Of a stretch of DNA of 64,000 nt, positions 33,837 to 57,737 are shown in pieces (within the stretch, counting starts at the first letter, position 1; the number at the start of each line of letters is the position of its first letter). The notes beneath the pieces were generated by a model. It was given only the letters and a program-made list of their open reading frames with translations, was not told where the DNA came from and made no database searches. Source of the stretch: Collinsella phocaeensis (GTDB lineage Bacteria; Actinomycetota; Coriobacteriia; Coriobacteriales; Coriobacteriaceae); contig NZ_FQLR01000004.1 in assembly GCF_900119895.1 (NCBI RefSeq), positions 124,001-188,000 of the forward strand, in the 5' to 3' direction. Position numbers and translations under genes: made by a program.

Positions 33837-33913
33837 TGCGGGGTGGAGCAGTCTGGTAGCTCGCCGGGCTCATAACCCGGAGGTCGTAGGTTCAAATCCT
33901 GCCCCCGCGACCA
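33837..33913 (+). tRNA. Initiator tRNA-Met (anticodon CAU), host of the island
   Basis: 77 nt with encoded CCA. The anticodon stem has the three G-C pairs (GGG/CCC) of initiators and loop CTCATAA. The D arm GAGC/GCTC and T loop TTCAAAT are normal. Position 1-72 is U.G instead of the usual C.A-type mismatch. The 3' 45 nt are repeated at 49015-49060, so the gene was restored by the integrated island. Confidence 0.94.
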
Positions 33914-33914
33914 A
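33869..33914 (+). repeat. attL: 46-bp core in the tRNA 3' half
   Basis: Identical at all 46 positions to 49015-49060. It starts at the anticodon loop and ends one base after CCA. Confidence 0.92.
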
Positions 33915-45564: not shown

Positions 45565-45620
45565 TTTAACCCGGGCGCATAGATTTAGCACATTTAACCC
45601 GGGCGCATAGATTTAGCACA
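45565..45620. repeat. Perfect 28-bp tandem duplication at the relaxase 3' end
   Basis: Units 45565-45592 and 45593-45620 are identical and abut. The inner copy contains the last codons and stop of the relaxase gene. Confidence 0.85.
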
Positions 45621-48925: not shown

Positions 48926-49014
48926 CCCTAGAATTACTTCCCGTTGCCGTCTTACGAGGTAGATACCCCTAATCAACTCTCATGCGTTTGCATGGCCTAC
49001 GTAGAAAATGCCCC

Positions 49015-49060
49015 TCATAACCCGGAGGTCGTAGGTTCAAATCCTGCCCCCGCGACCAAA
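49015..49060 (+). repeat. attR: 46-bp tRNA fragment
   Basis: Identical to the 3' half of the tRNA-Met gene at 33869-33914, with no 5' half, so not a functional tRNA. It marks the right end of island 1. Confidence 0.92.
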
Positions 49061-49111: not shown

Positions 49112-49132
49112 AAATGGTCTTTGAAATGGTCT
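49112..49132. repeat. Direct repeat beside integrase 2
   Basis: AAATGGTCT at 49112-49120 and 49124-49132, between the tRNA fragment and the second integrase stop. Possible arm-type sites. Confidence 0.4.
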
Positions 49133-50390
49133 AACTCGCCGGACGCCCCGACGGCGCCTGCGCGGGCTCGGGGCGCACCATCCCCGCGAGCACGGACAGG
49201 TCGATGTCCGCCGTGTAATACTGTCTGTTGACCTCGACCGAGTGGCCGAAGTACGCCGAGCGCACCTCGGCCGGCACCCCGCGGTCGCGCCACTCGCTGT
49301 TGAGCGTGGCCCTCCATACATGGGACGCCACGTTGCGGAGCAGCGGGATGCCGAGGTCGTCCGCCAGCTCGTCGTACAGGGCGCGCACCGCCTTCTGCGC
49401 GTTCGAGCTGTCCCACATCGCGCCGGGGGCAGCGGGGGCGCCGAACACGTAGGGGTCGCCGTCGGCGGGGAGCCTGCGGACGCGCTCCCTGATGCGCTCG
49501 GCGACGCGCTCGTCGTCCACGAAGCACATGCGCCCCCGGCGCGTCTTCGAGGCCTCGTCGGTGATCTCGAGCAGGAGCATCCCGTTTGCCTCCGCGACGC
49601 ACGAGCGCGTCAGCCTCCTGATCTCGACGATGCGGAGTCCGCATGTCGCCTGGGTGAGGGTCGCGTCGATGACCAGGAGGCGCTTCGCCGTCCGCTCTTC
49701 GGCAGTGTAGCGCCCGCGGGCGCCCCTGGGCATCGTCGGGTCGATCGAAAGCAGATGGTCGACGACCCTGAGCCGCTGGTCGCGGGTGAGCGCCTGGCCG
49801 CCCTTGGGCTTGCTGCCCTTTCGCTGGTCCCCCGTGTAGTCGGGATTGAGCCCGATGGCCTCGTTGACGGAGATGACATGGTCGGACTTCAGCTCGGCGA
49901 CGACGTACTTTCTGACGACCTTCTGAACCTGCTTCGCCGTCGCGGTGCCGTGCCCGCGCTCTATGCTGAGGAGGGCCTCCTCGAGGGCGTCGGAGGTGGC
50001 GGCGTCGGCGATCGGGTAGCGCCGCGCCGCCTCGGCGTACAGCCGCAGGAGCTCGACGTACTTCTTCCTGGTCCGTGGCCTGAGCTTCGAGTCGGGCTTC
50101 GCCTCGATGGCGGGGATTGTCTCCTTCAGGACGTAGTCCCGCATGCCGTCGCTGCTTCGCCACAGGCTCGTGCGCGGCCGGCCGTGCGTTGCCAGGAACT
50201 CCTCGGTCTTCGCATGGGCCCGCCGCCTGAGCTCCGCCTGCGAGCAGCTGCCTTGAACCGTGAGTTTGGCGGGCCTCTCGCCGTTGAGCGGCCGGACCCG
50301 CCATTGAAGGACGTAGCCGCCCTGCGGCCTTTGCCGGCACGAGCACGAGTCGATCGTGCTCTGCCCCGGCTCGAGCGCCATGCTTCTCAT
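49131..50390 (-). CDS. int: Tyrosine integrase of element 2
   Basis: 419 residues. The N terminus is an arm- and core-binding region (about 1-190). The catalytic domain has Arg in TCGLRIVEIRRL, His-x2-Arg in ASHVWRATLNSEW, His in AYFGHSVEV and the nucleophile Tyr in NRQYYTADI. It differs strongly from the island 1 integrase. AGGAGGGG 9 bp before the ATG at 50390. It lies 70 bp from the tRNA fragment, so it probably uses the same or a neighbouring attachment site. Confidence 0.9.
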   Translation of the reverse strand: MRSMALEPGQSTIDSCSCRQRPQGGYVLQWRVRPLNGERPAKLTVQGSCSQAELRRRAHAKTEEFLATHGRPRTSLWRSSDGMRDYVLKETIPAIEAKPDSKLRPRTRKKYVELLRLYAEAARRYPIADAATSDALEEALLSIERGHGTATAKQVQKVVRKYVVAELKSDHVISVNEAIGLNPDYTGDQRKGSKPKGGQALTRDQRLRVVDHLLSIDPTMPRGARGRYTAEERTAKRLLVIDATLTQATCGLRIVEIRRLTRSCVAEANGMLLLEITDEASKTRRGRMCFVDDERVAERIRERVRRLPADGDPYVFGAPAAPGAMWDSSNAQKAVRALYDELADDLGIPLLRNVASHVWRATLNSEWRDRGVPAEVRSAYFGHSVEVNRQYYTADIDLSVLAGMVRPEPAQAPSGRPAS

Positions 50391-50402: not shown

Positions 50403-50702
50403 CTAGCGACGCGGATGCGACGGGGCTCCCGTGCGGCGGCCGGACCGGGCGCCGCGTGATGTGGCCGCCAGACCGGTCGCGCAGTCGACGGTGCGGGAGT
50501 CGATCCACGAGATGACGTCCTCGCGGCGGTACCCCACGGGGGAGCGCTTCGCGCCGAGGCGCACGTAGTCGGGTCCCTTGCCCGCCGCGCGCCAGTTCGC
50601 GAGCGTGCTCGCGGAGATCCCCAGCATCGCGGCCGCCTCCGCTGAGCTGAGCAGGCGGCAAGGGTCGTCCTGATTCGAGATGGCGTTATCGTGCGTTTTC
50701 AT
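50403..50702 (-). CDS. Excisionase-like helix-turn-helix protein of element 2
   Basis: 99 residues. LSSAEAAAMLGISASTLANW with GPDYVRLGAKRSPVGYRREDVISW is a MerR/AlpA-type winged helix as in excisionases. GGGGAGG 6 bp upstream supports the ATG at 50702. It ends 12 bp before the integrase start and is probably co-transcribed with it. A basic tail of about 25 residues follows the domain. Confidence 0.82.
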   Translation of the reverse strand: MKTHDNAISNQDDPCRLLSSAEAAAMLGISASTLANWRAAGKGPDYVRLGAKRSPVGYRREDVISWIDSRTVDCATGLAATSRGARSGRRTGAPSHPRR

Positions 50703-51921
50703 TCCTGGCCTCCCCGGCAGCGCGTTCGTGCGCCGGGCAGCGGTTCCATGCGGGCGCCATCCGGGCGCCCCCGCCCCCGGCCGGGGAGGTTGTCGAGAAG
50801 CCTTGCTGCCCCCACCGGGCGTCGCTTCCGACGTGGCTCCGACCTCTTTTCTAGAACCCCGGCCGAGCCCGCGATTCTGTCTCACGCGCGAACAGGGCTG
50901 GCGCCGATACAATGCGTCAAGGGAGGCCGTAACCTCGGGGTACAGTTGCGCCGGCCCCTGAGCGGGGCTGCGGCTGACCGGTGTGCTTGGAAGGGCCCCG
51001 CCGGTCCACGGCAAAACGGAATACCCTCAGCGGGCTTCAAAGTCAAACCGCGGGAGGCTTAGGGGGCCTGTCGTTTTTTCGTTTCGGAAGGCTTCCGGCG
51101 GGGCGGGATGAGGCGCATCGGCCCCGTTCGGCCGCCCGTCCACGGCGGGCTTACCGGAGGGCGATTTTTCGCCATCGCCCGACAGGCGTCCATAAAACGA
51201 ACACAAACTTCGAATATCAGCTGCTAGGGACCGGTGCGCGCGACGTCTCGAGCGGCTGCTGATTCGGTTTTGCAGGGAAAAAATTCCATAACCGCAGGTC
51301 AACTCTCTATCAACGATGAAAACCGCGCAAATAGTCAACTGTAAACAGGGCTATACACAAAATAAACACAACATGCATAAATGCGGGTCAGCGTTCGATT
51401 CCGCGCCCCGTCTCGGCCCCGCGGCGCGAGGGCCCATGGAAACCTCTGTTCGATGGGGGTACTGTCTGGCGCAACGACGACAAGACGCCCGTCGGCGCAC
51501 CGACGGGCCCGAGACGGATGGGAGGCGACGGAGATGGACATCGAGGAGAGCAAGGGCTGCGGCTCGCGTTTGCGGACGCGGAGGAGCGGAGGCCGCGCCC
51601 CCGAGCTCCCCGGTTGCCCCGTCGCGTTTCAAAACCCCGCTCGCCACATCGGGCCTAATTGTCGCAAGGTGCCTGTCGCTACCGCGTTCGAGGTTTTCTG
51701 CGCGCGGGCGGCCCAGGGCTTGTCTTTGGGCCGCCCCGCGGCGATTTTCCCAGCTACTGCCCCATGCCCTGTCCGCCGCCGTGCCGTCGGCGGAACGTCG
51801 CCCGAAAACCCTGCCCGCCTGCCGGTCGATCGGCGCGGCAAATGGCGCGTCAATTACGCGACAATTTGTCAAATTGCCGCGCGCCGTCGGCTAATTGCCG
51901 CGCCCACAGGGGGTGAGCGGC
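50703..51921. other. 1.2-kb non-coding region of element 2
   Basis: Lies between divergent int/xis and rep genes. Frames here are short and Arg-rich without ribosome sites. An AT-rich patch (about 51270-51385) contains two GTCAACT words and is the main low-GC segment of the element. It probably holds promoters and perhaps the replication origin. Confidence 0.5.
51655..51903. promoter_or_regulatory. Repeated AATTG[TC]CGC motifs before rep
   Basis: AATTGTCGC near 51656, its complement GCGACAATT near 51859, and AATTGCCGCG near 51874 and 51893, the last just upstream of the rep start. Possible Rep-binding or operator sites. Confidence 0.4.
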
Positions 51922-54019
51922 ATGCCTGAGACCCCAGGGGCTCCAGAAAAGGAGGGCTTCGAGCGCTTCATCAAGGAGGCGGACCGGCCTGCGTGCCCGA
52001 CGTACTTCGTCAAGCTAACCGATAATTTCGTCGCCATGACGATGCTCGAGGACGAGGCCCCGCACCTCGACGTGAGGGGCGGCGGCAGGTCGAACATATT
52101 CGGGGAGCTCAGCCGCGCCGACCAGGAGGAGATCATCAGCCAGCCGGGGTTCCCCGCCGACGAGGGGGAGAACATCCGGAAGCACTGGCGCACCTGGGAC
52201 GAGTACGCCCGCAAGGACGAGGACGGCAAGTTCCACGGGGTGAAGCTCGTTCCGGGCGGCAGGGAGGCGGTAGACCGGTTCGCCGAGGAGTGGCGAGCGA
52301 AGCATCCCGGCGGGAAGGCGCGCCGGGCGGGAGGCGCGCGCGGGCGGAGGAAGGGCGGTCGCGGCGGCGACCAGCGGTCGACAATCCTGATGTTCTCCAT
52401 GCGCCCGCCATCGAAGCTCGAGGACCCCTCGTCCGCCTACATCGGCTGGACGGACGAGGAGAAGGCGGCGGCGGAGGCGGCCCTCGACCCCGCGGGCGGC
52501 GACGCCCGTCCGCTCGCGGAGATCTTCTTCTCGAAGGTCGGAGACGGGGACGACTGCGAGGTGGCCGACTGCTACGCGATCAGGCACGACCGCGACATGC
52601 ATCCCCCCCATCTGGGACTCGGAGACCGAGAAGTACATCCTCGACGCCCCGAAGGACCCGCACCTGCACGTCTACATCCGCTTCAAGGGCAGGGAATCGG
52701 GCCTCACCGCCGCAGGCCTCGCGAAGCGGCTGGGGATCCCGGAATCCCAGGTGGAGAAGGGGAAGACCAGGGGCCGCTACGCATGGTCGACGCAGTGCGC
52801 CTACGCGATACACGCGCTCGACGGCGACGACAACCCCGAGAAGCACCACTACGAGCCCGAAGACGTCATCACGCTCAAGGGGAAGCCCTACCCGGAGGTT
52901 TACTCCGAGAACAGGTTCTCGTGGGAAAGGAAGCGCGCGCAAAACGTCGAGTCATCCGCAGTCGACGAGCAGTCGCTGTCCGCGCTGCGCGCCGGCATCG
53001 CCGACGGCACCATCTCCAGGGAGGACATCATGATCAAGGAGGAGTGCTTCCGCGCCTACGCGACCCCGAAGGGGCGCGCCTCGGTCGAGTGCGCGTTCCA
53101 GGCGCGAAGCGAGCGCCGCATGTTCCTCGCGGCGCGGGCGCTGAGGAAGGGGGAGTTCACGAAGACCGTCGTCTACGTCCAGGGCGCCGCGGGCACGGGC
53201 AAGACGGAGATGGCGCACGGGTGGTGCGATTTCCTGGAGGCCCGCTTCGGCTGGGACACGTACCGCGCGGCGGCGAAGAACGCCCTCGACGACTACGCCG
53301 GCGAGGAGGTGATGCTGCTCGACGACGTCCGCGCACAGGCGATGACGGCGGAGGACTGGCTCAAGCTCCTCGACCCGTACCACGCCAGCCCCGCCTCGGC
53401 CCGCTACAGGAACAAGGCGAGCATCGCCCCGCGGGCGATCATCATCACCTGCTCGAAGCCGCCGGAGGAGTTCTTCTGCGCCTGCGCGGCGCGCGCGGAC
53501 GGCGGCAGCGCGAACGAGGCGATGGACCAGTTCTTCCGCCGCCTCCTCTGGCGCCTCCTGGTCTTCGACCCGTCGACGTACGGCTACTACAACATCGAGG
53601 CCTCCCATCCGAAGCTCGCGGCGCACCCCGCGAAGGTGAGCCTGGAGATCACCAAGCCGAACGGGGACTTCGAGATCCTCGATTTCGAGAACCTCAACCA
53701 CACGCTGAACCCGGCCCCCGGCATGCTCTCGCCCTACGCCGCGACGGAAGGGGTCATCCGCGACGTGGCGGTGAAGTCATCCGGCAAGGGCCTCTCGGAG
53801 GACGAGGCCAGCGAGCTTTGCGCGGAGGCGGCCCGCTACGTGCACAGGCGCTTCTTGAAGCTCATGGACTCGGGCGCCATCCCGAGCCTGCCCGGCCCGG
53901 ACGAGGGCTGCGCCCTCGAGCTGCCGGAGGCGACCGCCTCCCGGCCGACCCGCCACGGGCTGCCCGACGGGCCGCCCGTCCCCCGCGCGGCGGAGGGCGA
54001 CGGAGGGGAGGAGCCATGA
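51922..54019 (+). pseudogene. HUH endonuclease/SF3 helicase replication protein, frameshifted at a C7 tract
   Basis: Two overlapping frames make one protein of about 698 residues if one C is removed from the run at 52603-52609. The first part (to about residue 228) has FSMRPP, a possible Rep motif I. After the shift come HLHVYIRF (the HUH motif II), QCAYAIHALDGDD (likely catalytic Tyr) and a superfamily 3-like ATPase with GAAGTGKTEMAH, EEVMLLDDVRAQ and IIITCSKPPEEF. It resembles Rep proteins of rolling-circle plasmids with a helicase domain. In the genome as given the protein would stop being read correctly before its HUH motif. Sequencing error, pseudogene, phase variation and programmed slippage are all possible. 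GGGGG lies before the ATG. Confidence 0.78.
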
Positions 54020-54141
54020 CCGGGCGCGGGCCGAACCGCGGCACCCGGACAGCGCGGCCGCCACCGGGCCCCGCGGCCCGGACGGCCGCAAGGCGACGAC
54101 CACGGCGAAGCCGAAAAAAAGAAAGGGCGCACGGACCATGA
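54016..54141 (+). CDS. Small basic peptide
   Basis: 41 residues, mostly Arg, Pro, Ala and Gly, with KKERAHGP at the end. GGGGAGGAG lies 4 bp before its ATG, which overlaps the rep stop (ATGA), and its own stop overlaps the next start (ATGA). Coupling on both sides argues for real translation. No function is apparent. Confidence 0.5.
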   Translation: MTGRGPNRGTRTARPPPGPAARTAARRRPRRSRKKERAHGP

Positions 54142-54755
54142 ACAAAAGACTCTCGATGGCGGGCATAGGGCACTTGATACATCCGAGCGACCGGCCCATC
54201 GACTGGGATCAGCTGCTCGACTTCCACCGGCTCAAGCGCGAGCGAGGCATCAAGGTGACCGCGGCGTGCGAGCCCTTGAACATTTTCGAACGATTCACGC
54301 TCGATTGCCTGATCTACGCGGAGGAGTTCGACGAGCGGACGAGCTGCATGCCGCGTTACCGCTCGACCTCGAGTAACCGAGGAAGATCTGCCGAGTGGTG
54401 CATCAAGGCTCTCGTGACCGCCATCCACCTCACGAACGATCCCTACAGGAGGGAAGCGTACAGCGCCAAACTCCGGACGATCAAGAAGCATGCGGACGAG
54501 GAATGGGCCTCGAGGACCGCGCGCAAGGCTCTCGATTACGCCGAGCGCGGCGACAAGCTCCTCTTCTATGAGGAGCATTTTGACTGGAGGGAGGCCGAGG
54601 CCACACTCGAGGGCTTTCCCCTCGCGCTTCGCATGGCGGGGAGCGAGGGGGAGCGCGAGAAGCTCGTCGAGGCGCGCAGGAGGCTCCGGGCCCTCCTCAA
54701 CGAGCAGGCTCGCGAGGCCCGGCGCTACAAAGCGCGCATGCGCCGCCCTCGTTAG
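54138..54755 (+). CDS. Hypothetical helical protein of element 2
   Basis: 205 residues, not recognised. Mostly helical and charged, with YRREAYSAKLRTIKKHADEEW and a basic C terminus (REARRYKARMRRPR). The ATG overlaps the stop of the 41-residue ORF. It is probably part of the rep operon. A DNA-associated role is suggested only by its charge and place. Codon use here is somewhat less GC-rich than in the surrounding genes. Confidence 0.65.
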   Translation: MNKRLSMAGIGHLIHPSDRPIDWDQLLDFHRLKRERGIKVTAACEPLNIFERFTLDCLIYAEEFDERTSCMPRYRSTSSNRGRSAEWCIKALVTAIHLTNDPYRREAYSAKLRTIKKHADEEWASRTARKALDYAERGDKLLFYEEHFDWREAEATLEGFPLALRMAGSEGEREKLVEARRRLRALLNEQAREARRYKARMRRPR

Positions 54756-55111: not shown

Positions 55112-55186
55112 GCGGCCGGCCGCCCCGCCCCTCTCCGGGGGGGGGCGGGGCCCGGTGCCGCGACACCATGAAAGGAGGCCATCGTT

Positions 55187-55660: not shown

Positions 55661-55684
55661 GGACGAGTTATCAAGGAGGACGCC

Positions 55685-55891
55685 ATGAAGACATCTCTTC
55701 ACAACCAGCGCGGCGCTCTGGGCGCCGCGAGCGGCCGCCGGCCGCAACACAACGACGCCCTGATGTACCTCTGGGGCGTCGAGCGGTTCCATGCCGACGC
55801 GCTGCGTCGTGAGCGCCTAGACCGCGCGGCACCCGAGGACGGGCGCCCGGTGGACGACGGGACGCGGGCGGAGAAGGCGGACGAGCTCTAG
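55685..55891 (+). CDS. Mini-gene duplicating the N terminus of the MobV relaxase
   Basis: 68 residues. MKTSLHNQRGALG...PQHNDALMYLWG matches the first 40 residues of the downstream relaxase (MKASLHAQRGPRG...PQHNDGSMYLWD), and the ribosome site GGAGGACGCC is the same in both. The rest is charged and unrelated. The first MobV motif region is thus present twice. It may be a DNA-binding regulator or a duplication remnant. Confidence 0.65.
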   Translation: MKTSLHNQRGALGAASGRRPQHNDALMYLWGVERFHADALRRERLDRAAPEDGRPVDDGTRAEKADEL

Positions 55892-55901
55892 GGAGGACGC
55901 C

Positions 55902-57737
55902 ATGAAGGCATCTCTTCACGCCCAGCGCGGCCCCCGGGGCGGCAAGGGCGGCTACCAGCCGCAGCACAACGACGGCTCGATGTACCTCTGGGACGGAGCG
56001 CGGTTCGGTGCCGGCAGGCCGCTCAACTTGCACTGGGACGAGACCATGCCCGAGGGCGAGTGGCTGACGGGCGGCGAGCAGGCCGGGCGGACCGGCGCCG
56101 CCGTCGACTCGTTCTACGAGTCGACCCTGCGCGCCGAGTACGCGAGGAAGCTCGCCAGCGCCGGCTGGCGCAAGAACCCGTCCCGCGTCAAGGAGTTCGG
56201 CGACTACTGCAACGACGCGCGCCACCGCCTGTTCGAGACGATAATCCAGGTCGGCGACGCGGAGGAGTCGCCCGGGGAGGGCTGCCTCGAGGCCGCCCTC
56301 GACGGCGCGCTCGGGCGGATGCGCGAGCTCGGCGCCCGGATCGTCGCCGTCGACGTCCACCTGGACGAGGCGACGCCCCACGCGCACGTCCTCTGGGCGC
56401 TCATCGACTCCGAGGGCGAGTTCAACGTCGACCGCACCCTCCGCGAGCACGGCGTCGAGCCCGCCGAGGCGGCCTCGGGCGGCAAGCGCGACGCGAGGCG
56501 CGCGACGCGTCTCGCGGCGTTCACCGCGAGCGTGCGCGAGGCGATGGAGGACGCGGCCGACGAGTGGCTCGCCGAGCACGGGATGGAGGCGCTCGACCGC
56601 GAGCGCGACCCTCGGCGCAAGGGCGAGACCCTCCCCGAGTACAAGGGGCGCAAGCGCCGCGAGCGCGCGCAGCGCGAGAAGATCGAGCGGATGCGCGAGG
56701 ATGCGGAGGCCGTGCTCGACGGCGCGATCGAGAAGGCGGACGAGATCGTCCTCAAGGCGTGGGAGGAGGCCTGCGAGATCAAGGCGGGGGCGCTCTCGGA
56801 CCGGAGGCTGGCGCGGGGGGAGGCCGAGTCCGCCCGGGCCGCCGCCCGCGAGCTCTCCCGGCGGGAGGCGCGGGCGAGCGTCCTGCTCGACGGGTACGAG
56901 CCGCCCGCCTTCGCGCACCTCGTGAGGCCCGAGCAGATGCCGCCCGACATGCACGCCCTATGGCTCTACCTCTACGGGCCGAGGCTCGAGGGCTACGAGC
57001 CCGACGACTCCGAGGTCCCCGACCGCTACTGCACCTGCGTCCTGCCGGGCTCCGACGCCCCGGCCGTCGACCCCGACGCCGTCGAGGACGACTTCGACGG
57101 GCTGCTCGACGGGCTCTACGGCGACCGCGACGCCTGCGCGAAGGCCTGCGGGGAGGAGGGCGTCTGGCTCTTCGACGCCATCCCGGAGGACTACGAGCTG
57201 GGCGAGTGGTTCCTCGACGAGGAGGGCCGCGTGGACCCGGACGTCTGGGGCGACGCCCTCGACAGCTACGCCTCGGACGCGATGGACGCGATCGGCGTCC
57301 CGCTCCGCCTCGGGCTCGACCCCGAGCTCCCGCACCCCGGCCTCGCCGAGCGGGAGGCCGCCGTCGAGTCCCGCGAGCGGGAGGTCGCCGAGCGCGACCG
57401 CGCGGCCGCCGAGGAGGAGGCGCGTGCCCGCGACGCCCGCGAGCGCGCCGAGGCCGAGCTCCGGGAGGCGGAGCGCCTCCGGGCGCTGGCGGGCAGCGCC
57501 TGCGACGTCCTCCGGCGGGGCCTCATCTTTCTCGCCGACCGCTTCGGGCGCGACCGGCTCACCGGCGGGCAGAACGAGGTCGGGCGCGTGCTGTCCGGGC
57601 TCGTGAGGAGGATGGGCACGCGGGAGTTCGAGGGCGCCTCCCGCGAGTTCGAGGAGCTGGTGTTCCCGCCTCGCGCGCCCTCGGCGCCCGCCCCCTCGGC
57701 CCCGTGCGCCGAGCCGCAGGACTCGCCGGAGCTCTAG
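55902..57737 (+). CDS. mobV: MobV/Pre-type relaxase
   Basis: 611 residues. The N-terminal Mob/Pre domain (about 1-215) has SLHAQRG...PQHNDGSMYLW and the metal site VDVHLDEATPHAHVLWALID (HxDExTPHxH). A coiled region and an acidic mid part follow, and a coiled coil rich in Arg/Glu/Ala (about 485-545) precedes the end. It should nick the element for transfer by rolling-circle strand displacement. GGAGG 8 bp before the ATG. The preceding mini-gene ends 10 bp upstream. No coupling protein is present in element 2, so transfer would need a helper, perhaps island 1. Confidence 0.88.
   Translation: MKASLHAQRGPRGGKGGYQPQHNDGSMYLWDGARFGAGRPLNLHWDETMPEGEWLTGGEQAGRTGAAVDSFYESTLRAEYARKLASAGWRKNPSRVKEFGDYCNDARHRLFETIIQVGDAEESPGEGCLEAALDGALGRMRELGARIVAVDVHLDEATPHAHVLWALIDSEGEFNVDRTLREHGVEPAEAASGGKRDARRATRLAAFTASVREAMEDAADEWLAEHGMEALDRERDPRRKGETLPEYKGRKRRERAQREKIERMREDAEAVLDGAIEKADEIVLKAWEEACEIKAGALSDRRLARGEAESARAAARELSRREARASVLLDGYEPPAFAHLVRPEQMPPDMHALWLYLYGPRLEGYEPDDSEVPDRYCTCVLPGSDAPAVDPDAVEDDFDGLLDGLYGDRDACAKACGEEGVWLFDAIPEDYELGEWFLDEEGRVDPDVWGDALDSYASDAMDAIGVPLRLGLDPELPHPGLAEREAAVESREREVAERDRAAAEEEARARDARERAEAELREAERLRALAGSACDVLRRGLIFLADRFGRDRLTGGQNEVGRVLSGLVRRMGTREFEGASREFEELVFPPRAPSAPAPSAPCAEPQDSPEL

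Follow-up and report, generated by a model that had tools for sequence, protein, structure and literature searches.

Does the interrupted reading frame of a replication gene in an integrated element of Collinsella phocaeensis reflect a gene that has been disabled, a base that was wrongly called, a reversible switch, or a frameshift that is part of normal expression? The question is raised by a 64,000-nucleotide stretch of contig NZ_FQLR01000004.1 (positions 124,001 to 188,000; hereafter the window, from whose first letter positions are counted). An earlier sequence-only reading of this DNA had described an HUH/SF3 replication protein whose frame changes at a run of seven Cs, just before the HUH motif. 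The features on which the following analysis draws are collected in the table.

Features of the tandem elements and of the rep locus (window positions)
Feature	Position	Strand	Basis
tRNA-Met gene, integration site	33837..33913	+	ARAGORN
att repeat, left end of first element	33869..33914	+	46-bp exact repeat of 49014-49059
att repeat, right end of first element and left end of rep-bearing element	49014..49059	+	repeat comparison
Tyrosine integrase of rep-bearing element	49131..50390	-	Pfam Phage_integrase E 4.6e-5, below cut-off; directly inside att repeat
HTH_17 (excisionase-like) protein, start uncertain	50403..51014	-	Pfam HTH_17 E 1.5e-8
Putative double-strand origin, hairpin with loop GGGCTTGTCTT	51701..51740	+	40 nt identical to T. 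provencensis; layout in ten loci, six arm sequences
GCGACAAT / AATTGCCGCGC repeats before rep, possible Rep-binding sites	51854..51903	+	direct repeats
rep 5' part (ORF A)	51922..52608	+	N-terminal extension, motif I strand, HDRD; 60% identical to T. provencensis Rep
C7 tract, frame-change point	52603..52609	+	sequence, codon-position G+C, homology, codon-usage HMM
rep 3' part (ORF B)	52610..54019	+	HUH motif, Tyr294, SF3 helicase; 54% identical to T. provencensis
Small ORF of element, no family match	54138..54755	+	profile searches
MobV-like relaxase	55902..57737	+	NCBIfam MobV partial, below cut-off, E 2.3e-5; 37.5% identical to T. provencensis post-rep relaxase

The position of the frame change was confirmed by independent measures. 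ORF A begins with an ATG in frame 1, and ORF B lies in frame 2, which is open until its stop. Without recourse to homology, the codon position with the highest G+C shifts phase between the segments 52400-52579 and 52580-52759, and a codon-usage HMM, trained on ORFs of the same genome with G+C at position 3 > 1 > 2, places the switch at 52598. Homology bounds the switch to 52597-52615, from the conserved Met of HDRDM to the conserved Trp, and the C7 tract falls inside this interval. The window contains four G/C runs of at least seven, and the chance of one of them landing in the interval is, by our estimate, ~0.001-0.002. As sequenced, translation from the ATG covers 229 residues of Rep before running on out of frame, and the earliest start in the downstream frame, a GTG at 52751, is too late for a protein containing the HUH motif. 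Over the 470 codons beyond the tract no decay is visible, third-position G+C remaining at 0.90-1.00.

The product of a +1 read-through has 698 residues, the last of which are garbled by a second in-frame CCCC, or 683 residues if stopped before it. It is an HUH endonuclease and SF3-helicase Rep of the virus-like plasmid 'pCRESS' kind, and the interrupted HUH/SF3 protein of the sequence-only reading is thus borne out by sequence, family profiles and a structure model. The HUH motif HLH (residues 247-249, nt 52661-52669) is in the downstream frame, and so, as that reading had claimed, are the motif III tyrosine (Tyr294, 52802-52804), Walker A (GAAGTGKT, 53183-53206) and Walker B (VMLLDD, 53309-53326). 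H247, H249, Y294 and K427 are invariant in an 11-sequence alignment. ORF B matches Pfam RNA_helicase above the cut-off and Rep_OBD weakly. An AlphaFold model of the 683-residue read-through Rep, for which the input rows were the window and genome sequences with the plasmid-record sequence left out, has a mean pLDDT of 77 and a pTM of 0.50. Model residues 149-329 match the fold of the pMV158 RepB origin-binding domain (Z 9.3), and residues ~351-630 match the Rep ATPases of PCV2 and a redondovirus (Z about 12). The invariant histidines and the RepB match identify an HUH endonuclease domain, although this domain is divided over two frames, the junction at residue 229 cutting it between motif I and the HUH motif. 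The Pfam and Rep ATPase matches likewise identify an SF3 helicase with both Walker motifs.

Reps of this type have been reported from integrated and free bacterial plasmids, with pCRESS4-8 forming a YLxH supergroup (Kazlauskas et al. 2019, PMC6668415). The Rep described here is like those of pCRESS4-8 in joining HUH and SF3 helicase domains, in keeping the Tyr and His of motif III, and in belonging to a site-specifically integrated element without capsid genes. It is unlike them in its frame break at the C7 tract, in its long N-terminal extension and in motif III itself, which reads YAIH here and in the nearest homologue, that of Thermophilibacter provencensis, and YLIH, YLTH, YLVH or YLPH in other homologues; the Leu of the YLxH signature is therefore not kept. 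The Rep of Lactococcus cremoris pQA504 (NC_017497) is 36% identical over ORF B residues 2-307, and the two loci share the same upstream hairpin layout with its GGGCTTGTC loop and the presence of mobilization genes on the replicon. However, pQA504 is a free 4-kb plasmid, and its 508-aa Rep is uninterrupted and has no N-terminal extension. pMV158 RepB, despite the fold match, has no SF3 helicase domain. One continuous reading frame, as in a pCRESS-type Rep, is not found here, and if the sequence is right, rep is a broken member of this type and not a working one.

The gene is carried by the second of what appear to be two tandem elements in one tRNA-Met gene, since the 3' end of the tRNA-Met gene recurs, as a 46-bp att repeat, at 33869, at 49014 and, beyond the window, at C1:190797-190842, where 42 of 46 positions are retained. 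The first element (15.1 kb) encodes a MobA/VirD2-type relaxase, a coupling protein and an MmeI-type restriction-methylation gene. The second (about 17.8 kb) has an integrase, an HTH_17 protein, rep, small ORFs and a MobV-like relaxase; its integrase and flanking att at a tRNA gene, the far repeat being the 42/46 copy, are those of an integrative mobilizable element. The reading frames of the integrase, the excisionase-like gene and the relaxase are open, and the order rep, small ORFs, MobV-like relaxase is the same in T. provencensis. No match for the proteins of the element was obtained in PHROGs, and no tRNA-Met core copy that could represent an empty site was found in the G041, G028 and G221 stretches. 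Two further repeats were observed in the elements: a 131-bp direct repeat (55675-55805 / 55892-56022, 79% identity) duplicates the 5' end of the MobV-like relaxase, the first copy being truncated, and a perfect tandem repeat of TTTAACCCGGGCGCATAGATTTAGCACA (28 nt) lies at 45565-45620, beside the stop of the relaxase of the first element.

Upstream of rep, a hairpin is probably the double-strand origin, judging from its conservation, and it is intact beside the broken gene. Its 40 nt are identical to those of T. provencensis, while the proteins are only about 56% identical, and among 395 genomes the hairpin core was found only in the two that have this Rep subfamily. The layout, consisting of a CGCGCG box, an arm, a CTTGT loop and the complementary arm, is present upstream of ten related Reps, including that of Lactococcus pQA504. 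The loop GGGCTTGTC(R)A is shared, with covarying arms, by the window and nine other loci (L058:464-503, L077, L079, L061, L062, L080, L064, L003 and L017). In seven of the ten loci the stem is perfect and 9-12 bp long, and these seven have six different arm sequences; L061, L062 and L079 have short stems only, and in L079 the layout lies within the 5' extension of the open frame. Other CTTGT sites in the C. phocaeensis genome have stems of at least 9 in 6 of 2068 cases, and four more distant or truncated rep loci have no such hairpin site. Nicking is predicted at CTTG^TC in the hairpin loop. The GCGACAAT and AATTGCCGCGC repeats that follow may be Rep-binding sites, and CGCGACAAT is repeated before the T. 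provencensis rep as well. The hairpin is not described in the passages of PMC6668415 that were searched, and a full-text literature search of incomplete coverage returned no match to the loop sequence, which is not claimed here to be unreported.

If the frame change were programmed, it would be expected to be conserved among homologues. The closest relative, the T. provencensis Rep (56% identity overall), is intact: its CYAIRHDRDMKPPVWD aligns without a gap with CYAIRHDRDMHPP/IWD of the window (DMKPPVWD and DMHPP/IWD), and its codons at the junction, AAG CCG CCC GTC, contain no homopolymer. Nine further homologues are likewise uninterrupted, making ten in total. Because all of these are continuous, the frame break is, on the sequences compared, a private lesion and not programmed frameshifting. 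Protein searches also gave matches to the Reps of Lactococcus pQA504 and of phytoplasma plasmids, and relatives of Rep are present in 17 of 395 genomes of the order, C. phocaeensis included. No near-identical locus besides the T. provencensis homologue was found among viral and genome contigs, either by protein or by the DNA pattern across the tract. Phage records gave no match, a DNA comparison of the surroundings of rep with 148 relatives yielded short matches only, and no second copy of rep was found in the C. phocaeensis assembly.

The sequence-only reading had listed recent inactivation, phase variation, programmed slippage and sequencing error as causes. The first and last of these are both possible, since runs of seven bases are, across this assembly, especially prone to frame breaks. 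Every G/C run of at least 4 in the 1.59-Mb contig was scored for whether the coding frame changes there with no stop close by. Such breaks coincide with 18/6460, 1/1433, 1/99 and 3/6 of the coding runs of length 4, 5, 6 and 7, respectively. The 7-runs differ from the 4-6-runs (3/6 vs 20/7,992; Fisher p 4e-7), in a length class for which the two same-genus 400-kb control stretches, which contain no coding 7-runs, offer no control. The broken 6-C run is located in an ABC-transporter ATPase gene (C1:972555). Runs of G9-G11 and C10 at window positions 55137-55145 and at C1:401776, 946110, 1428647 and 451404 are candidate length-variable tracts; several of the long G/C runs lie just upstream of genes, and an HTH protein has a G11 in frame close to its start.

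The tract length may have been miscalled during sequencing or assembly, in which case Rep would be intact in the living strain. Half of the coding 7-runs are on frame breaks, and the two others affect unrelated genes (C1:736645 and C1:761230, a permease-like gene and a secreted coiled-coil protein, named from sequence reading). Additionally, frame-switch candidates number 20 in 800 kb here vs 2-3 in 400 kb in each of two same-genus genomes. One of these candidates is in an ilvD-like gene (C1:237880, L029), where a perfect inverted repeat with 30-nt arms interrupts the frame; it resembles an artefact of fold-back during assembly, or else a mutation by template switching. However, just one 6-run and one 5-run are broken, and the broken runs deviate in length in both directions. 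Noncoding runs are called up to a length of 10 with no cut-off; those of 8, 9 and 10 were observed 8, 8 and 2 times where composition expects 23, 7 and 2, and are thus roughly as predicted at the long end. Deviations of both signs and uncut noncoding runs are unlike systematic under-calling, and the balance therefore tips, with modest confidence, towards a real slippage lesion in the rep of an integrated mobilizable element, a reading based on one assembly of one isolate. A miscalled tract is kept as a serious though less probable explanation because the assembly has more frame breaks than its relatives.

We infer from these observations that the extra base is real. According to the slippage reading, polymerase slippage would recently have added one base to the C tract and so cost rep its frame, the host having no detectable MutS. 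No MutS_I match was found in the C. phocaeensis genome, compared with 11 of 14 control genomes that have one, and NucS gave a sub-threshold match only. In an intact Rep, the HUH/Tyr centre would nick the hairpin origin, which precedes rep by about 200 nt, and the SF3 helicase domain would unwind the DNA. The element as sequenced would, with the presumed loss of Rep function, not be able to initiate rolling-circle replication by itself. Integration may relax selection on rep, so that such a lesion would be tolerated.

Phase variation, in which tract length would switch reversibly in the population and turn replication of the element on and off, is mechanistically possible in a host in which MutS was not found, but it is unlikely. 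Seven bases are short for a dedicated contingency tract. A single allele is known from the one assembly, the nearest homologue has no tract, which argues against a conserved, selected switch, and no observation speaks positively for switching. In glpK of Mycobacterium tuberculosis, also a G+C-rich bacterium, a one-base expansion of a 7-G run inactivates the gene and is a common reversible variant (PMC6667613); unlike the present case, which concerns one genome only, that polymorphism occurs in many isolates and is tied to a phenotype.

Least credible of all is a minor full-length Rep made by programmed or leaky +1 slippage on CCC-CCC-C: CCC-C is shift-prone, with +1 shifting of up to 1% at best, when it adjoins the start codon in E. 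coli (PMC4519876), and the downstream frame is undecayed, but the ten homologues are single open frames that need no shift, RNA near the tract folds no more strongly than shuffled sequences do (z +0.96), and beyond the shift site the zero frame continues with CAT and not with a stop. Of the four causes listed by the earlier reading, programmed frameshifting is rejected, given the unbroken homologues and the missing stimulatory RNA structure. Because of the shifting reported for CCC-C, a trace of full-length Rep is conceivable.

Overall, nothing more than an ordinary lesion or an error probably underlies the broken rep, which looks like chance slippage or misassembly rather than a regulated switch. 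If the tract were, improbably, a reversible switch of the rolling-circle replication of the integrated element, a few cells in the population would amplify and transfer it. For a Coriobacteriales genome in which no MutS was detected, the locus allows homopolymer instability to be tested concretely. It also provides, in the hairpins with covarying arms and a common GGGCTTGTC loop, a probable origin for a virus-like bacterial Rep family, which can be tested in vitro with an intact homologue.
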